This document shows positions 28,813-34,254 of a stretch of DNA of 64,000 nt, piece after piece. Origin of the DNA: Winogradskyella epiphytica (lineage in GTDB: Bacteria; Bacteroidota; Bacteroidia; Flavobacteriales; Flavobacteriaceae); the NCBI RefSeq assembly GCF_003217215.1, contig NZ_QJTD01000002.1, positions 384,654-448,653 of the forward strand, read 5' to 3'. The notes beneath the pieces were generated by a model, which had not been told where the DNA came from, did no database searches, and saw nothing but the letters and a program-made list of their open reading frames with translations. Each line of letters starts with the position of its first letter. Within the stretch, counting starts at the first letter, position 1. The position numbers and the translations under genes were made by a program.

Positions 28813-28820
28813 TACATTTG
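28813..28820 (+). promoter_or_regulatory. Putative -7 element of the thr operon leader
   Basis: TACATTTG matches TAnnTTTG exactly. The -33 region is a T-run rather than a clear TTTG. The predicted start, about 28825-28828, coincides with the ATG of the leader reading frame, so the transcript could be leaderless or nearly so. Confidence 0.55.
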
Positions 28821-28827
28821 AAAGGTA

Positions 28828-28935
28828 ATGAAGAAAATTAAAGACATATCATTCAACACATCTCATAGTTCTAACTATGCAGTTATGTCTATTATTTTTA
28901 TTTCTACTATGATTACCCCTTGGGGTAATTTATAA
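28828..28935 (+). CDS. thrL: Putative thr operon leader peptide
   Basis: A 35-codon frame ends in TAA at 28933. Its second half is MSIIFISTMITPWGNL. Codons 22-30 (28891-28917) are ATT ATT TTT ATT TCT ACT ATG ATT ACC: four Ile, two Thr and one Met in nine codons. A shorter 16-residue version could start at the internal ATG at 28885. Leader peptides of thr operons in enterobacteria carry Thr and Ile codons that sense charged tRNAs, and Met is a further product of the thrA pathway. It is followed by a terminator-like hairpin at 28991-29028 and then thrA. A palindrome (ATTACCCC-TT-GGGGTAAT, 28912-28929) covers the last sensing codons. Translation is not shown by sequence alone. Confidence 0.65.
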   Translation: MKKIKDISFNTSHSSNYAVMSIIFISTMITPWGNL

Positions 28936-28990
28936 ACTATAATCCGTCCTATTTAGTCTATTCAGACACTTTTACTTTTTTCATTTCCAT

Positions 28991-29028
28991 TTATATGAAA
29001 CATCCATGATGTAGCGTATAATCTTTTT
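28991..29028 (+). terminator. Putative attenuator hairpin upstream of thrA
   Basis: A stem of TTATATG with CGTATAA (one U-G pair), a 2x2 internal loop, then ACATC with GATGT around a CAT loop, is followed by TCTTTTT. It ends 14 bases before the thrA ATG, so termination here would silence the operon. TTTCAT at 28979-28984 can pair with ATGAAA at 28995-29000 inside the left arm, a possible antiterminator. The stem is AU-rich, so stability should be calculated. Confidence 0.6.
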
Positions 29029-29042
29029 AAAACATTTTGAAT

Positions 29043-31517
29043 ATGAGAGTACTTAAGTTTGGTGGAACCTCTATCGGTTCAGCTGATAACATAAATAAAG
29101 TAATTAACATTTTAGATGAAAAATCTAAAAGTGATAATATTGTCGTTGTAGTTTCTGCTGTTGGAGGCATAACCGATAAATTATTAGAAGCAGCAAATTT
29201 AGCCTGCGATAAGAATTTAGACTATAAACCTGCTTATGAGGTTATATGTTTGATTCATAAGACAATCATTGATGAGTTATTTTTAAATTCTGAAAAGAAT
29301 TTAACTATTCAAACGCATTATACACAACTCCACCAAATAGTTTCAGAAAAACTCAGTGAACTAAGTCGTCTTTTAGATGGCATCTATCTTATCAATGAAT
29401 TATCACCTAAAACAAAGGATAAATTATTAAGTTTTGGTGAGGGACTATCTTCAACGATTATCTATCACACCCTCAAATCAAGACAGATTGATGTAAGTTT
29501 TAAAAATTCACAAGATTTAATTGTAACTGATTCTACCTTCAATAATGCAATCGTCAATTTTGGAATTACAGATAAGAATATTAAAACCTACTTTGACTCT
29601 AGTTCAAGTGCTATAGTACTACTTCCCGGTTTTATAGGAAAATCCTTAAGAGGCGAATTTACAACTTTAGGTCGTGGAGGTTCGGACTATACGGCAGCTA
29701 TAATTGCCGCCAATTTAGAAGCAAAAGAATTACAAATATGGACAGATGTAAGCGGCATGTACACCACGAACCCGAAATTGGTTAAACAGGCAGCACCAAT
29801 AGTTCAGCTTTCATATCAAGAAGCTATAGAGCTATCGCATTTTGGTGCTAAAGTATTGTATCCACCTACTGTTCTGCCAGTGCTTAAGAAGAATATTCCG
29901 ATTGTAATTAAAAACACACAAGCACCAAAAGCTATCGGAACAACTATAACCGAAATCGTTGTTCCCAATGGAGGTTCACCTGTTAAAGGCATTAGTAATA
30001 TCGATAAAATTGCTCTATTGACCTTACAGGGTAATGGAATGGTTGGTGTCCCTGGTTTTAGTAAACGTTTATTTGAAATACTTGCTCAAGAAAAAATCAA
30101 CAGTATTTTAATTACACAATCGTCTTCAGAGTATTCCATTTGTTTCGGTATTTTAGAAGAAGATGCGGCTAGAGCAAAAGAAGCTATAGATTTAGTATTT
30201 GAATATGAAATTCAACTTCAAAAAATTGATCCAATTATTATTGAAACTAACTTATCTATCATCGCCGTTGTTGGAGATAAGATGAAAAATCACCAAGGCA
30301 TTAGCGGTAAAATGTTTAGTACCTTAGGAAAAAACAATGTAAATATAAGAGCAATCGCTCAAGGAGCATCCGAGCGAAATATCTCAGCTGTAATTAATAA
30401 AAACGATGTCAAAAAAGCATTAAACTGTTTGCACGAGCAGTTTTTTGAAACTAAAACCAAACAAATGAATTTATTTATTACTGGTGTAGGTAATGTTGGA
30501 GAACGTTTATTAGAGCAAATAAAACAACAAAAAGCCTACGTAAAAGAAAATTTTAAAATCAACTTACGAGTTATTGGCTTATCCAATTCAAGGACCATGG
30601 TTGTTAATGATGATGGCATCAATTTGAAGCATTGGAAAGACGAACTGAAAGATGGTGAGAAAGCAAGTTTAGAAGAATTTTTCGAGCATGCTAAAAACCT
30701 AAACTTAAGAAATTCAGTTTTTATAGACATCACAGCTAACGAAGCCGTCGCAAACAGTTACGCTAACTACCTTAAAGAAAGTATGTCTGTTATAGCTTGT
30801 AATAAAATTGCTTGTTCTGGTGATATCAATTATTATAATGAATTGAAAACATTATCTCGAAAATATAATGCATCATTCTTATTTGAAACCAATGTTGGCG
30901 CCGGCTTACCCATAATAGACACCTTAAATCATTTAATCACTTCCGGAGACAAAATAAACACGATACAGGCTGTTTTATCTGGGAGTCTGAATTTTATTTT
31001 TAATAATTTTAACGCGGATACCACTTTTCATGACGTTGTAAAACAAGCTCAACAAGAAGGTTATACAGAACCAGACCCTCGGATTGATTTAAGCGGAATT
31101 GATGTGGCTCGTAAAATTTTGATATTAGCTCGAGAAAGTGGCAATGCTTTGGAATTATCAGATATTGAAAGTGCATCATTTTTAACACCTAAGGCTAACA
31201 GTTCGGAGTCGGTAGAAGATTTTTTTAAAACATTAATTGAAGATGAAGGCCATTACCAACATTTATTAAAATCCGCTCAAAAATCTCATTGCCAATTAAA
31301 GTTCGTAGCTGAGTTAGATAATGGTAAAGCCAAGGTTGGACTAAAAGAAATCCCAGAAGGGCATCCTTTTTATAATTTAGAAGGAAAAGATAATATAGTT
31401 ATGTTTTACACACAACGTTATTCCGAACAGCCTTTAATTATAAAAGGTGCTGGTGCTGGTGCAGACGTTACTGCCTCTGGCTTGTTTGCCGATATCATTA
31501 GAATCGCTAATAATTAA
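29043..31517 (+). CDS. thrA: Bifunctional aspartate kinase / homoserine dehydrogenase
   Basis: An 824-residue enzyme for the first and third steps from aspartate to threonine. The N-terminal aspartokinase begins MRVLKFGGTSIGSADN and shows FTTLGRGGSDYTAA. Two ACT-type regulatory units follow (GNGMVGVPGFSKRLFEIL and VGDKMKNHQGISGKMFSTLG), which in homologues bind threonine for feedback inhibition. The homoserine dehydrogenase starts at about residue 470 with FITGVGNVGERLLEQI and continues with NVGAGLPIIDTL and GYTEPDPRIDLSG. The ATG at 29043 is the family start, and the TTG two codons upstream is not needed. It is first in thrABC and lies directly after a leader frame and hairpin. Confidence 0.96.
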   Translation: MRVLKFGGTSIGSADNINKVINILDEKSKSDNIVVVVSAVGGITDKLLEAANLACDKNLDYKPAYEVICLIHKTIIDELFLNSEKNLTIQTHYTQLHQIVSEKLSELSRLLDGIYLINELSPKTKDKLLSFGEGLSSTIIYHTLKSRQIDVSFKNSQDLIVTDSTFNNAIVNFGITDKNIKTYFDSSSSAIVLLPGFIGKSLRGEFTTLGRGGSDYTAAIIAANLEAKELQIWTDVSGMYTTNPKLVKQAAPIVQLSYQEAIELSHFGAKVLYPPTVLPVLKKNIPIVIKNTQAPKAIGTTITEIVVPNGGSPVKGISNIDKIALLTLQGNGMVGVPGFSKRLFEILAQEKINSILITQSSSEYSICFGILEEDAARAKEAIDLVFEYEIQLQKIDPIIIETNLSIIAVVGDKMKNHQGISGKMFSTLGKNNVNIRAIAQGASERNISAVINKNDVKKALNCLHEQFFETKTKQMNLFITGVGNVGERLLEQIKQQKAYVKENFKINLRVIGLSNSRTMVVNDDGINLKHWKDELKDGEKASLEEFFEHAKNLNLRNSVFIDITANEAVANSYANYLKESMSVIACNKIACSGDINYYNELKTLSRKYNASFLFETNVGAGLPIIDTLNHLITSGDKINTIQAVLSGSLNFIFNNFNADTTFHDVVKQAQQEGYTEPDPRIDLSGIDVARKILILARESGNALELSDIESASFLTPKANSSESVEDFFKTLIEDEGHYQHLLKSAQKSHCQLKFVAELDNGKAKVGLKEIPEGHPFYNLEGKDNIVMFYTQRYSEQPLIIKGAGAGADVTASGLFADIIRIANN

Positions 31518-31519
31518 TT

Positions 31520-32443
31520 ATGAAAAATGAAATAAAGATTTTCTCACCTGCAACGGTCGCGAATGTCGCCTGTGGTTTTGATGTGCTTGGTTTTTGTTTA
31601 GATTCCATCGGTGATGAAATGATTATTAGGAAAACAGAAGCTCAAGGCCTCAAAATAACAAAAGTAGAAGGTTACGATTTGCCTTATGAAATTGAACAAA
31701 ATGTAGCTGGAGTTTCAGCTCATGCTATGTATACTGCGTTAGAACCAGATTGTGGTTTTGAGATTGAAATCTATAAGAAAATAAAACCAGGAAGTGGCAT
31801 TGGAAGTAGTGCTGCAAGTGCTGCAGGAAGTGTATGGGGAATGAATGAATTACTGGGAAATCCTTTAAATCAAACTCAACTCACCTATTATGCCATGAAA
31901 GGTGAGGCATTAGCTAGTCAGTGTGAACATGCAGACAATTTAGCTCCAGCCATCTTTGGAGGATTCACTTTAGTGAAGTCAATTGACCCATTACATATTT
32001 TACAATTACCTACACCTTCAGAACTCTATGCGACATTAATACATCCGCAAATAGAAGTAAAAACATCAGAGTCAAGAGCAATTCTTCCAAAGGAAATTCC
32101 ATTACAGAATGCTATTTCTCAATGGGCAAATGTTGGTAGTTTAGTTCATGCGCTACATACCGCCGATTATGATTTAATAAAAGAGTCATTGATTGATAGT
32201 GTAGTTGAATCGCACAGAAAAGAATTAATTCCGCATTTTGATGCTGTCAAAACGGCTGCTTTAAACGCTGGAGCATTAGGTTGCGCAATTTCTGGAGCTG
32301 GACCTTCCATATTTGCATTGAGCAAAGGTAAAAAAACTGCGACTGCAGTGGAATCGGCGATGCGAATTGTGTACTCCAATACAGAAATAGAATTTGAAAC
32401 TTATGTTTCCAAAATTAATGTAGAAGGCATATATAAAATATAA
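31520..32443 (+). CDS. thrB: Homoserine kinase
   Basis: A 307-residue GHMP kinase that phosphorylates L-homoserine. The opening IKIFSPATVANVACGFDVLGFCLD and the ATP loop KPGSGIGSSAASAAGS (about 92-107) are diagnostic, as is the late GCAISGAGPSIFALS motif. Length is canonical. The ATG is two bases after the thrA stop, so the two are tightly coupled in the thr operon. A 114-base gap to thrC shows no terminator or clear promoter, so thrC is probably on the same transcript. Confidence 0.96.
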   Translation: MKNEIKIFSPATVANVACGFDVLGFCLDSIGDEMIIRKTEAQGLKITKVEGYDLPYEIEQNVAGVSAHAMYTALEPDCGFEIEIYKKIKPGSGIGSSAASAAGSVWGMNELLGNPLNQTQLTYYAMKGEALASQCEHADNLAPAIFGGFTLVKSIDPLHILQLPTPSELYATLIHPQIEVKTSESRAILPKEIPLQNAISQWANVGSLVHALHTADYDLIKESLIDSVVESHRKELIPHFDAVKTAALNAGALGCAISGAGPSIFALSKGKKTATAVESAMRIVYSNTEIEFETYVSKINVEGIYKI

Positions 32444-32557
32444 ACTGTTACAAAAGTCCGTACAAAGTAAACATAGTGGCTCCCAAAGGTTTCGTGTTTA
32501 AGCACGGAAATTATTTTGATTTAGAATAGTCTCAGTATTTAAAGTATTAAAAAACAT

Positions 32558-33856
32558 ATGAAATATTATAGTTTAAACCGCATAGCGCCTAAGGCAACAT
32601 TTAAAGAGGCTGTTATAAGAGGACTCGCTCCTGATAAGGGGTTATATTTTCCGGAATCTATTACACCTTTAGATGCAAGCTTTTTTGAAACTATTGAAGA
32701 GAAGTCAAATACGGAAATAGCTTTTGAAGCAATAAAACAGTTTGTTGTTCCTGAGATTCCTGAAGACATTCTTAAAAGTATTATTGAGGAGACTTTAAAT
32801 TTTGATTTTCCTGTGGTAGAAATTAATAATAAAGTTTCAGTATTAGAATTGTTTCATGGACCAACGATGGCTTTTAAAGATGTTGGTGCCCGCTTCATGG
32901 CGAGATGCTTAGGCTATTTTAATCAATCAAACACGAAGGATGTCACAGTTTTAGTTGCCACATCAGGTGACACAGGAGGTGCAGTTGCTAATGGTTTTTT
33001 AGGCGTGAAAGGTGTCAATGTAGTTATTCTCTATCCAAGTGGAAAAGTAAGTGATATACAGGAGAAACAATTAACGACACTAGGTCAGAATATCACAGCT
33101 TTAGAAGTTGATGGCGTCTTTGACGATTGTCAAGACATGGTAAAACGTGCATTTTTGGATGAAGATATAACTAGCAAAATACAATTAACTTCGGCTAATT
33201 CTATTAATATAGCACGTTGGTTGCCACAACTATTTTACTTCATGTTTGCATACAAACAATTAAAGTCAACATACAATAGTATTTCTTTCTCTGTTCCAAG
33301 TGGCAATTTTGGAAATATATGCGCTGGCATGGTTGCTCAGAAGTTAGGTTTACCTGTAAAACATTTTATCGCCGCTAACAACGCTAATGATACTGTTGTT
33401 AATTATATGGCTACGCAATCATATAAACCTAAACCATCGGTTTCAACCATTAGTAATGCCATGGATGTTGGAAACCCTAGTAATTTTGTGAGAATATTAG
33501 AATTACATCAGCATAACTTTGAGGCTCTAAAAGGTAATTTTTCATCATTTAGCTTTACAGATGACGACACTAAAACTGCACTATTTGAATTATATAATGA
33601 TTATAATTATGTTGCAGACCCTCACGGGGCCGTTGGTTTTCTAGGTGCTAAATCGTATTTAGAAAATAATGATGGTCATGTCGTATTTTTAGAAACGGCT
33701 CATCCGACCAAATTTTTAGACACCATTAGCAAAGTGATTAAGCGAGATGTACCACTTCCACCCCAAATTTCATCTATAATGGACGGCCAAAAGCAATCCA
33801 TAAAAATAAATTCGTATGGCCATTTAAAAAGCCATCTATTAGAGAGTTATTTTTAA
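32558..33856 (+). CDS. thrC: Threonine synthase
   Basis: A 432-residue PLP enzyme that converts O-phosphohomoserine to threonine. The PLP lysine lies in HGPTMAFKDVGARFMAR (about residues 105-121). VATSGDTGGAVANGFLG binds the phosphate, and SVPSGNFGNICAGMVA is the second conserved loop. The N-terminal MKYYSLNR...ATFKEAVIRGLAPDKGLYFPE segment is typical of the family. It is the third gene of the thr operon. The next gene, a GIY-YIG-like frame, starts 47 bases later without an intervening terminator. Confidence 0.96.
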   Translation: MKYYSLNRIAPKATFKEAVIRGLAPDKGLYFPESITPLDASFFETIEEKSNTEIAFEAIKQFVVPEIPEDILKSIIEETLNFDFPVVEINNKVSVLELFHGPTMAFKDVGARFMARCLGYFNQSNTKDVTVLVATSGDTGGAVANGFLGVKGVNVVILYPSGKVSDIQEKQLTTLGQNITALEVDGVFDDCQDMVKRAFLDEDITSKIQLTSANSINIARWLPQLFYFMFAYKQLKSTYNSISFSVPSGNFGNICAGMVAQKLGLPVKHFIAANNANDTVVNYMATQSYKPKPSVSTISNAMDVGNPSNFVRILELHQHNFEALKGNFSSFSFTDDDTKTALFELYNDYNYVADPHGAVGFLGAKSYLENNDGHVVFLETAHPTKFLDTISKVIKRDVPLPPQISSIMDGQKQSIKINSYGHLKSHLLESYF

Positions 33857-33903: not shown

Positions 33904-34254
33904 ATGTCAAAGGTTCAATACACTATATGTGTTATAGAGTTATCGAAACGCGTATTCACAGAAAATGCAAAATTTAGAAACGCCAATCCTCAGTTTAATG
34001 GGGTGTTAGAATGTTTATATGTAGGCATGACTAGTAAATCACCGAAAGAACGATTTTTACAGCATAAATCGGGTTATAGGAATAAAAAAGGTTATAAAAT
34101 ATCTTCAAATATTGTTGAAAAATACGGTACGTATTTACGTCCGAGTTTATATAATCATATTGATCCTTTTTTCAACAGAGCCGAAGCTTTAGTTGCAGAA
34201 GAACAAATTTCTTTAGAATTAAGAAGAGAAGGATACGCCGTTTGGTTTAACTAA
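33904..34254 (+). CDS. Small GIY-YIG-like protein
   Basis: A 116-residue protein with features of the GIY-YIG nuclease fold: a first strand YTICVIELS, then CLYVGMTSKSPKERFLQHKSG (the YVG at 39-41 and Arg50 match the second strand and helix of the fold) and a Glu-rich helix AEALVAEEQ (93-101) that could supply the metal-binding Glu. The classical GIY triplet is replaced by ICV. Function is unknown and nuclease activity is inferred only. It follows thrC by 47 bases, and its last eight bases overlap the 3' end of bshA on the other strand. I see no sign of a homing endonuclease. Confidence 0.7.
   Translation: MSKVQYTICVIELSKRVFTENAKFRNANPQFNGVLECLYVGMTSKSPKERFLQHKSGYRNKKGYKISSNIVEKYGTYLRPSLYNHIDPFFNRAEALVAEEQISLELRREGYAVWFN

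Follow-up and report, generated by a model that had tools for sequence, protein, structure and literature searches.

A threonine/isoleucine leader peptide and two hairpins upstream of thrABC in Winogradskyella and its relatives suggest an attenuator without a classical intrinsic terminator

The threonine operon of Winogradskyella epiphytica raises the question whether the short reading frame in front of it is an amino acid-sensing leader peptide and, if so, by what step the signal would reach the genes. The stretch analyzed (64,000 nucleotides, positions 384,654 to 448,653 of contig NZ_QJTD01000002.1 in assembly GCF_003217215.1; hereafter the window) carries thrA, thrB and thrC consecutively at 29043-33856, and the closest named relatives of its ThrA come from Winogradskyella. 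A preliminary description of its sequence had proposed that an Ile/Thr/Met-rich peptide followed by a hairpin with a T run forms a transcription attenuator working as in enterobacteria. By comparing loci of related bacteria and by RNA folding, we found a conserved frame, conserved control codons, two hairpins (A and B) with a pyrimidine box between them, a conserved spacing, and no classical pair of terminator and antiterminator (Table 1). Judged from these sequence features, thrABC is probably, if by no means certainly, governed by a ribosome-sensed Thr/Ile attenuator whose stopping step is something other than a classical intrinsic terminator and perhaps depends on Rho.

The comparison covered 143 regions upstream of thrA: the window, 89 loci from the genomes of 149 relatives, and 53 further loci (80 with named records, minus 27 that repeated earlier ones). 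A script that required a frame starting with ATG and ending in hairpin A detected a leader in 102 regions, one of which (L086) was dropped as false, and detected none in 41. The resulting 101 leaders comprise 31 core Winogradskyella loci and 70 others, including three (L035, L036 and L038) that also belong to Winogradskyella. The core represents 31 of 33 loci (WIN, the window's own, and L002-L033); L027 has, by eye, an intact leader with a single N in its hairpin, L031 has a frameshifted one, and neither is in the script's set. In L128 and L129, control codons and hairpin A are visible in the absence of an ATG-started frame. For a wider view of the phylum, 198 genomes were drawn, 154 of which had ThrA at E <= 1e-100; 89 upstream regions, chosen for spread, were read, and one (L288) failed orientation by script.

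The features counted in the preliminary description were found in place: the -7 box, the 35-codon frame with four Ile, two Thr and one Met in codons 22-30, the 55-base gap between the end of the frame and its hairpin, and a TCTTTTT run ending 14 bases before the thrA ATG (29043). Six Ile or Thr in nine codons have a chance probability of ~0.005 in random 34-residue peptides of the window's composition, and conservation in relatives is much stronger evidence for the leader than this value. The frame is open in all 31 core loci, as opposed to 0/31 for either of the other two frames, and its ATG is separated from hairpin A by one of four distances, each divisible by three. The ratio of nonsynonymous to synonymous substitution rates (dN/dS), a rough estimate from all pairs of 31 related sequences and single-difference codons only, is ~1.14 in the N-terminal region, 0.23 over the control core and 1.23 in the hairpin codons. 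A peptide that drifts while its frame and its Ile and Thr codons are kept is the pattern that a ribosome-sensing leader predicts. On this comparative evidence the leader peptide is real: a short open reading frame (ORF) under selection, with codons related to the product of the biosynthetic operon that it precedes.

Codon usage also indicates what would be sensed. Among 700 control codons of the 70 other loci, 294 are Thr, 125 Ile and 20 Met. When the ACC position, which the script favored, is left out and 30 long frames of the window serve as background, Thr accounts for 224 of 630 codons (6.4-fold enrichment), Ile is enriched 2.5-fold, and Met (20/630) only 1.4-fold. The 31 Winogradskyella loci, counted in the same way, have Ile in 95 of 279 codons (4.3-fold), Thr in 32 (2.1-fold) and Met in 30 (4.7-fold), and Ser and Phe are enriched as well. 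However, 25 of these 30 Met codons share one position, eight codons before the hairpin, and the Met of this window stands where 24/31 loci carry Ile. Thus, the codon counts support Thr and Ile as signals and do not support Met as a general one, although the preliminary description had considered Met sensing.

By script, the leader and hairpin A occur in 34 of 59 congeneric thrA loci (35 when L027 is added by eye: 31 core loci, L027, L035, L036 and L038) and in 67 of 84 loci outside the genus, so that an Ile/Thr-rich leader before thrABC, as proposed, is borne out well beyond this species. Reading the phylum sample by eye, we assigned 33 loci to this type in families f1, f18, f22, f23, f36 and f5; one of them, L245, had been counted before as L072 and stands twice in the 134 rows of terminator scoring and hairpin B positions, and L253 had likewise been counted before as L080. 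With two f2 loci within the 70-locus set, the type extends by eye over Flavobacteriaceae and six further families (f2, f5, f18, f22, f23 and f36), and in f22 hairpin A has a reversed base composition. A covariance model of hairpin A, box and hairpin B (R1) gave 32 matches at E < 1e-6 in 119 genomes, one per genome, all directly upstream of thrA and all within the window's genus, in addition to 14 weak matches elsewhere (E 5e-4 to 0.05); as a test of specificity this is weak, since 12 of the matched genomes supplied model sequences and strict filters were used.

Hairpin A sits at the last control codon, and the leader stop (28933-28935) comes directly after it. It begins at an in-frame ACC codon in 101/101 loci, partly by construction because the script favored such frames, and in 87 of the 101 no other frame has an ATG-started ORF of at least 15 codons across it. 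The leader stop lies before, or at most 7 nucleotides from, the end of the hairpin A G-run in 94/101 loci, and in the phylum sample it falls inside the hairpin in 20 of the 30 loci where a stop was found. In 28 distinct aligned sequences, 82% of pair cells hold and 12 cells changed on both sides, and the covariation score was reached by 9 of 500 shuffles. An inverted repeat at a fixed place downstream of a promoter could also be a DNA operator palindrome for a repressor, with the leader ORF incidental. We regard this as very improbable, given that the frame and control codons are conserved in register with hairpin A and that a second hairpin, B, is conserved as structure.

Downstream of hairpin A, most loci contain a pyrimidine-rich box (YUYCCG and variants) ~16-22 nucleotides past the G-run, and hairpin B follows. 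Hairpin B starts at +28 to +33 from the G-run in 30/30 Winogradskyella loci and in 50 of 61 others with a hairpin at this place. Hairpins of -3 kcal/mol or below occur in 74% of Winogradskyella loci, 59% of others and 82% of the phylum sample, versus 6%, 10% and 37% of shuffles. In 18 aligned sequences, picked from the 70 loci because they could be aligned, its pairs hold in 94.4% of cells and its covariation score was reached by 0/500 shuffles; two of five measures were within the shuffle range (45/500 and 271/500). Both hairpins show two-sided changes. In addition, a window-pair scan for pairing that beats mismatched partners (L082, L158, L149, L073 and L074 omitted) gave hairpin B as the best signal in a 65-locus set (z 3.3), and nothing above z 1.8 in a 31-locus set. 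Two more signals in the 65-locus set fell inside the leader ORF (z 3.2 at -75/-35 and z 2.9 at -50/-30 from hairpin A), so that leaders of the 70-locus set may contain another hairpin ahead of the control codons, roughly between -75 and -30 relative to hairpin A.

A TAnnTTTG box lies close upstream of the leader ATG in all 31 core loci. In Flavobacterium psychrophilum such a box is placed at -12 to -5 (PMC9723704), and the start predicted from this placement lies 3 nucleotides before the leader ATG in 28 of the 31 core loci and 5-6 nucleotides before it in three; in 47 of the 70 other loci it lies 12-18 nucleotides before. The Winogradskyella leader ORF would accordingly be nearly leaderless, with a predicted 5'-untranslated region of 3 nucleotides at this locus.

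The next step of the question is how such a leader might stop transcription. The preliminary description had assigned this role to the hairpin at 28991-29021 with its TCTTTTT tail (29022-29028). This hairpin is stable for its composition (-9.4 kcal/mol; 0/200 shuffles equally stable) and is followed by a T5 run, and it could be a functional, leader-controlled intrinsic terminator gained in this one lineage. A search of the surrounding stretch in 70 genomes (43 of the genus) yielded only itself and seven short matches with E > 0.002, i.e., no counterpart in the 69 other genomes, and one comparison bearing on this stretch omitted L034, L082, L158, L149, L073 and L074, where present. Leader stop and thrA are 107 nucleotides apart here, and 57-71 in other core loci. 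The hairpin, which lies ~75 nucleotides downstream of the control codons, has a predicted probability of 0.99 whether hairpin A is free or blocked. TTTCAT (28979-28984) and ATGAAA (28995-29000), proposed to pair with each other, are both present; the 0.99 is the value that predicted folds give to the hairpin. Because it has no counterpart elsewhere and its fold is indifferent to hairpin A, the hairpin is, on these sequence comparisons, an addition specific to this genome and not a conserved switch, and its use as a terminator gained here is improbable. Alignment of the relatives' upstream regions has therefore a divided outcome for the preliminary description: its Ile/Thr frame is conserved but its hairpin is not.

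Terminators were scored in all sets by one script (dG <= -6 kcal/mol and at least 5 T in 8 nucleotides of tail), with shuffles that keep base composition only. The unbiased comparison is that between the 101 script-chosen thr leaders and 27 his leaders taken by HisG (30 his loci minus L204, with no start found, and L207 and L209, with no His leader seen). Strong terminators were present in 4/101 thr leaders: the window, through the hairpin unique to it, was the single case among the 31 core loci, and the 70 others contributed three. The same score was reached by 26/27 his leaders and 1/101 shuffled thr segments. Less independent sets gave 2/33 for the phylum sample and 7/7 for canonical thr leaders, both sorted by eye after their 3' parts had been seen and hence circular, and 30/30 for trp loci, which were found with an Rfam model spanning the full leader. 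An intrinsic terminator between leader and first gene is thus the rule for his leaders and the exception here.

Antiterminators gave a similar picture. The RNA was folded with the control codons masked and with its 3' end placed at the left arm, either that of the terminator or that of hairpin B. In 25 his leaders this arm was paired upstream with a probability of 0.70, versus 0.36 when the arm was shuffled, and the fold gained 2.4 kcal/mol; five canonical thr leaders gave 0.66 versus 0.54 and a gain of 4.6 kcal/mol. The corresponding values for hairpin B were 0.01 versus 0.02 (24 core loci), 0.37 versus 0.28 (45 loci) and 0.33 versus 0.31 (27 loci), with no energy gain, so that folding predicts no terminator-exclusive antiterminator switched by ribosome position. 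In longer folds, hairpin B had probabilities of 0.91/0.91, 0.86/0.86 and 0.75/0.71 with hairpin A free/blocked in the three sets, and shifted by more than 0.2 in 8/45 and 9/27 loci of the last two. The enterobacterial logic proposed for this operon therefore holds for its sensing half but not for its terminator/antiterminator step. Some single folds had made an antiterminator between the right arm of hairpin A (GGGG) and the pyrimidine box seem plausible; it was rejected because shuffled boxes of equal composition paired equally well or better in all three sets; the control is strict, as many pyrimidine runs can pair with GGGG.

Hairpin B and its U-rich tail can also be read as an intrinsic terminator of low strength that works when growth temperature is low or NusA/NusG assists; the leader would then be an attenuator of the classical kind, with a terminator weaker than usual. 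At least 5 T in 8 nucleotides come after hairpin B in 23 of 31 core Winogradskyella loci (L016 has eight T), and a tail of this kind follows the best hairpin in 7 of the 70 others; the remaining 63 lack the tail or the hairpin. The stem is worth only ~-3 kcal/mol in most Winogradskyella loci, its left arm has no antiterminator, and the his and ilv leaders of related genomes, as well as the ilv leader of this very genome, possess strong terminators. We consider this explanation unlikely, though not negligible.

The lack of a conserved strong terminator would equally fit a leader that controls translation or mRNA decay of thrA instead of transcription. Pairing between the thrA start and the hairpin B tail (+35 from the G-run) is slightly stronger than in shuffles (-3.2 versus -1.9 kcal/mol, 29 core loci), and a second ATG occurs 8-18 nucleotides past the hairpin A G-run in 26/31 core loci, with an ATGA overlap with thrA in 14. 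Folding does not favor such control: openness of the thrA start was 0.60 versus 0.59 by hairpin A state in 31 loci (changes above 0.1: 1 up, 2 down) and 0.49 versus 0.52 in 67 loci (10 up, 2 down; L149, L158 and L073 omitted). The second ATG is absent in this window, and its frame is not conserved, with 12 other ends in several frames. With some support but with folding predictions not in its favor, control at this level appears rather unlikely. The second short ORF, taken as an element in its own right, was rejected for its unconserved frame and its absence from this window.

Under the favored reading, that of a Thr/Ile attenuator with a non-classical stop, thrABC would be adjusted to the charging of tRNA-Thr and tRNA-Ile. 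The nearly leaderless ORF would be translated, and its Ile/Thr control codons run directly into hairpin A, with the stop codon in or directly after it. If Thr or Ile were short, a ribosome would stall on the control codons, hairpin A would stay open and RNA polymerase would reach thrA. If both were plentiful, the ribosome would finish and leave, hairpin A would form, and transcription would then stop in the C-rich, G-poor stretch containing the pyrimidine box and hairpin B. Hairpin A and the box may help to halt RNA polymerase there, with no intrinsic terminator involved. The output would be transcription termination needing a factor, for which Rho is the likeliest candidate. The C/G ratio from hairpin A to thrA is 2.7, 2.4 and 2.0 in three sets, compared with 1.1 in 32 5' regions of the window, 1.55 in the seven loci whose leader is lost and 0.88 in 14 other-context loci, and the excess of C over G is 0.09-0.11 after the leader versus 0.03 before hisG. 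The genome encodes Rho (a Rho_N match in a 580-residue open frame). This C-rich, G-poor stretch and the presence of the gene make Rho the obvious candidate, but as an identification of the required factor it is tentative, and we would hold it possible rather than probable.

Several observations weigh against a factor-dependent attenuator of this design. In 24 of the 59 congeneric thrA loci the leader is broken, absent or replaced: it is broken or altered in three (L031, L034 and L037); seven (L047-L053) have kept the TACATTTG box before thrA with neither leader peptide nor hairpin A; 13 have thrA in another context without such a leader; and one is of the canonical type. The start of hairpin B varies between +21 and +39 across the phylum sample, and only 7 of 31 lie at +28 to +33. 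The pyrimidine box pairs with the right arm of hairpin A no better than shuffled boxes do, and the C-G excess equals or exceeds the Winogradskyella mean in 4 of the 32 background regions. The U-rich tail after hairpin B, as noted above, leaves room for a weak intrinsic terminator in most of the Winogradskyella loci.

Table 1. Features of the thrABC leader region and operon, in window coordinates.
Feature	Position	Strand	Basis
TACATTTG, sigma-A -7 box (TAnnTTTG)	28813..28820	+	sequence; consensus and -12..-5 placement from PMC9723704
Putative transcription start	28825	+	predicted from box placement in PMC9723704
Leader peptide ORF, 35 codons, MKKIKDISFNTSHSSNYAVMSIIFISTMITPWGNL	28828..28935	+	frame and conservation in relatives
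Control codons 22-30, IIFISTMIT	28891..28917	+	dN/dS 0.23 over control core; Ile and Thr enriched
Hairpin A, GAUUACCC-CUUG-GGGUAAUU, -8.8 kcal/mol	28911..28930	+	folding and conservation
Pyrimidine box, ATCCGTCC	28942..28949	+	~20 nucleotides after hairpin A G-run
Hairpin B, GUCU-AUUC-AGAC, -2.9 kcal/mol (weak); T-rich stretch 28970-28981 follows	28956..28967	+	at +30 after G-run
Genome-specific stretch; hairpin 28991-29021 and TCTTTTT 29022-29028	28982..29042	+	found only in this genome
thrA, bifunctional aspartate kinase/homoserine dehydrogenase I (AK-HSDH I)	29043..31517	+	curated models
thrB, homoserine kinase	31520..32443	+	curated models
thrC, threonine synthase	32558..33856	+	curated models

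Among known systems, the closest is the enterobacterial thrL leader (Rfam Thr_leader, RF00506), in which Thr and Ile codons before thrABC allow two aminoacyl-tRNAs to be sensed. The leader described here resembles it in both respects and differs in having neither a strong terminator nor an antiterminator. An Rfam search of the leader gave no match at the gathering score, RF00506 included, and a single chance-level match to another family at E <= 5. Canonical thr leaders do occur in Bacteroidota: seven were seen by eye in the phylum sample (L273, L274, L277, L278, L280, L283 and L296; families f17, f18 and f29), and an eighth in the congener L065, within 400 bp before thrA, where MRYIINIMTTMITMIP is the leader, rich in Ile, Met and Thr, and the terminator reaches -14.8 kcal/mol. 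They share the gene and the Thr/Ile codons (L065 also Met) with our type, whereas their terminators, for which these eight were picked by eye, are at -14.5 kcal/mol or below. Rho-dependent leader attenuators such as mgtA/mgtC and tnaC, where translation of a short ORF sets the access of Rho, would be alike if Rho is indeed involved, but differ in signal, peptide and RNA structure.

The his and ilv leaders and Bacteroid-trp (RF01692) likewise place a control-codon leader peptide upstream of an amino-acid operon, but have strong terminators (his 26/27, trp 30/30, and ilv in this genome). The window's own genome carries a canonical ilv attenuator before ilvD (L325, 1280-1307 and upstream), with leader MNKQVIIIISIISIAIISRCQGMV and a terminator of -13.4 kcal/mol followed by seven T. 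By eye, 7 of 22 ilvD upstream regions (L325, L328, L331, L336, L338, L340 and L343) have a leader and a strong terminator, and the remaining 15 have no clear leader in the stretch viewed. Attenuators of Bacteroidetes/Chlorobi, and a thrA controlled by Met in Pasteurellales, were reportedly described in a 2004 survey by Vitreschak et al.

Among the titles listed by literature searches, none concerned a thr leader in Bacteroidota. According to PMC9723704, there are strong clues that leader peptides attenuate amino-acid operons in F. psychrophilum, a member of the same family, and elements of pheA and hisG are named among others; that work shares the general idea with the present leader, and its main text contains neither "threonine" nor "thrA". 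Because attenuation has thus been proposed for F. psychrophilum, the kind of control is not new for the family; the terminator-poor thr leader looks like a new design within known leader-peptide attenuation. Bacteroid-trp is listed as an Rfam family in PMC2864571, and Bacteroides Rho has been studied for phase separation (PMC10284900), which has no bearing on the thr leader.

A broader proposal is that this represents a second, widespread attenuator type of Bacteroidota, with control codons fused to hairpin A, the leader stop inside or beside this hairpin, box and hairpin B farther downstream, and dependent on pausing and Rho in place of terminator and antiterminator; we find it plausible, although its chances seem somewhat less than even. 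Classical his, trp or ilv leaders can be present in the same genomes: of those with this thr leader type, 11 yielded a his leader as well, and 18 a trp leader. Nature offers a comparison inside single genomes, with a terminator-based ilv leader in this species, and his and trp leaders in congeners, next to a thr leader that recurs across families with no recognizable terminator or antiterminator. If our interpretation is true, ribosome-sensed control of amino-acid operons in Bacteroidota can skip the textbook switch, surveys based on terminators overlook such leaders, and the thr leader provides a testable place for Rho in this phylum.

Some observations concern the genome and its neighbors. 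The window's genome (G000; 3.38 Mb, 99.85% complete) has no HisG and no Bacteroid-trp leader that we could find (RF01692 matched neither the window nor, with strict filters, the genome), each of which was found in 56 of 60 genus genomes searched; judged by these markers only, it is possibly auxotrophic for His and Trp. The loci before hisG in Flavobacteriales (L201-L230) include His leader peptides (e.g., MTFIQLHHHHFHTCTQAS) with strong terminators, and a 5' element of hisG is mentioned in PMC9723704. Within the window, thrC is followed by an ORF of 116 residues (33904-34254). It has no NCBIfam match at 1e-10 and, by eye, looks similar to a GIY-YIG nuclease domain.

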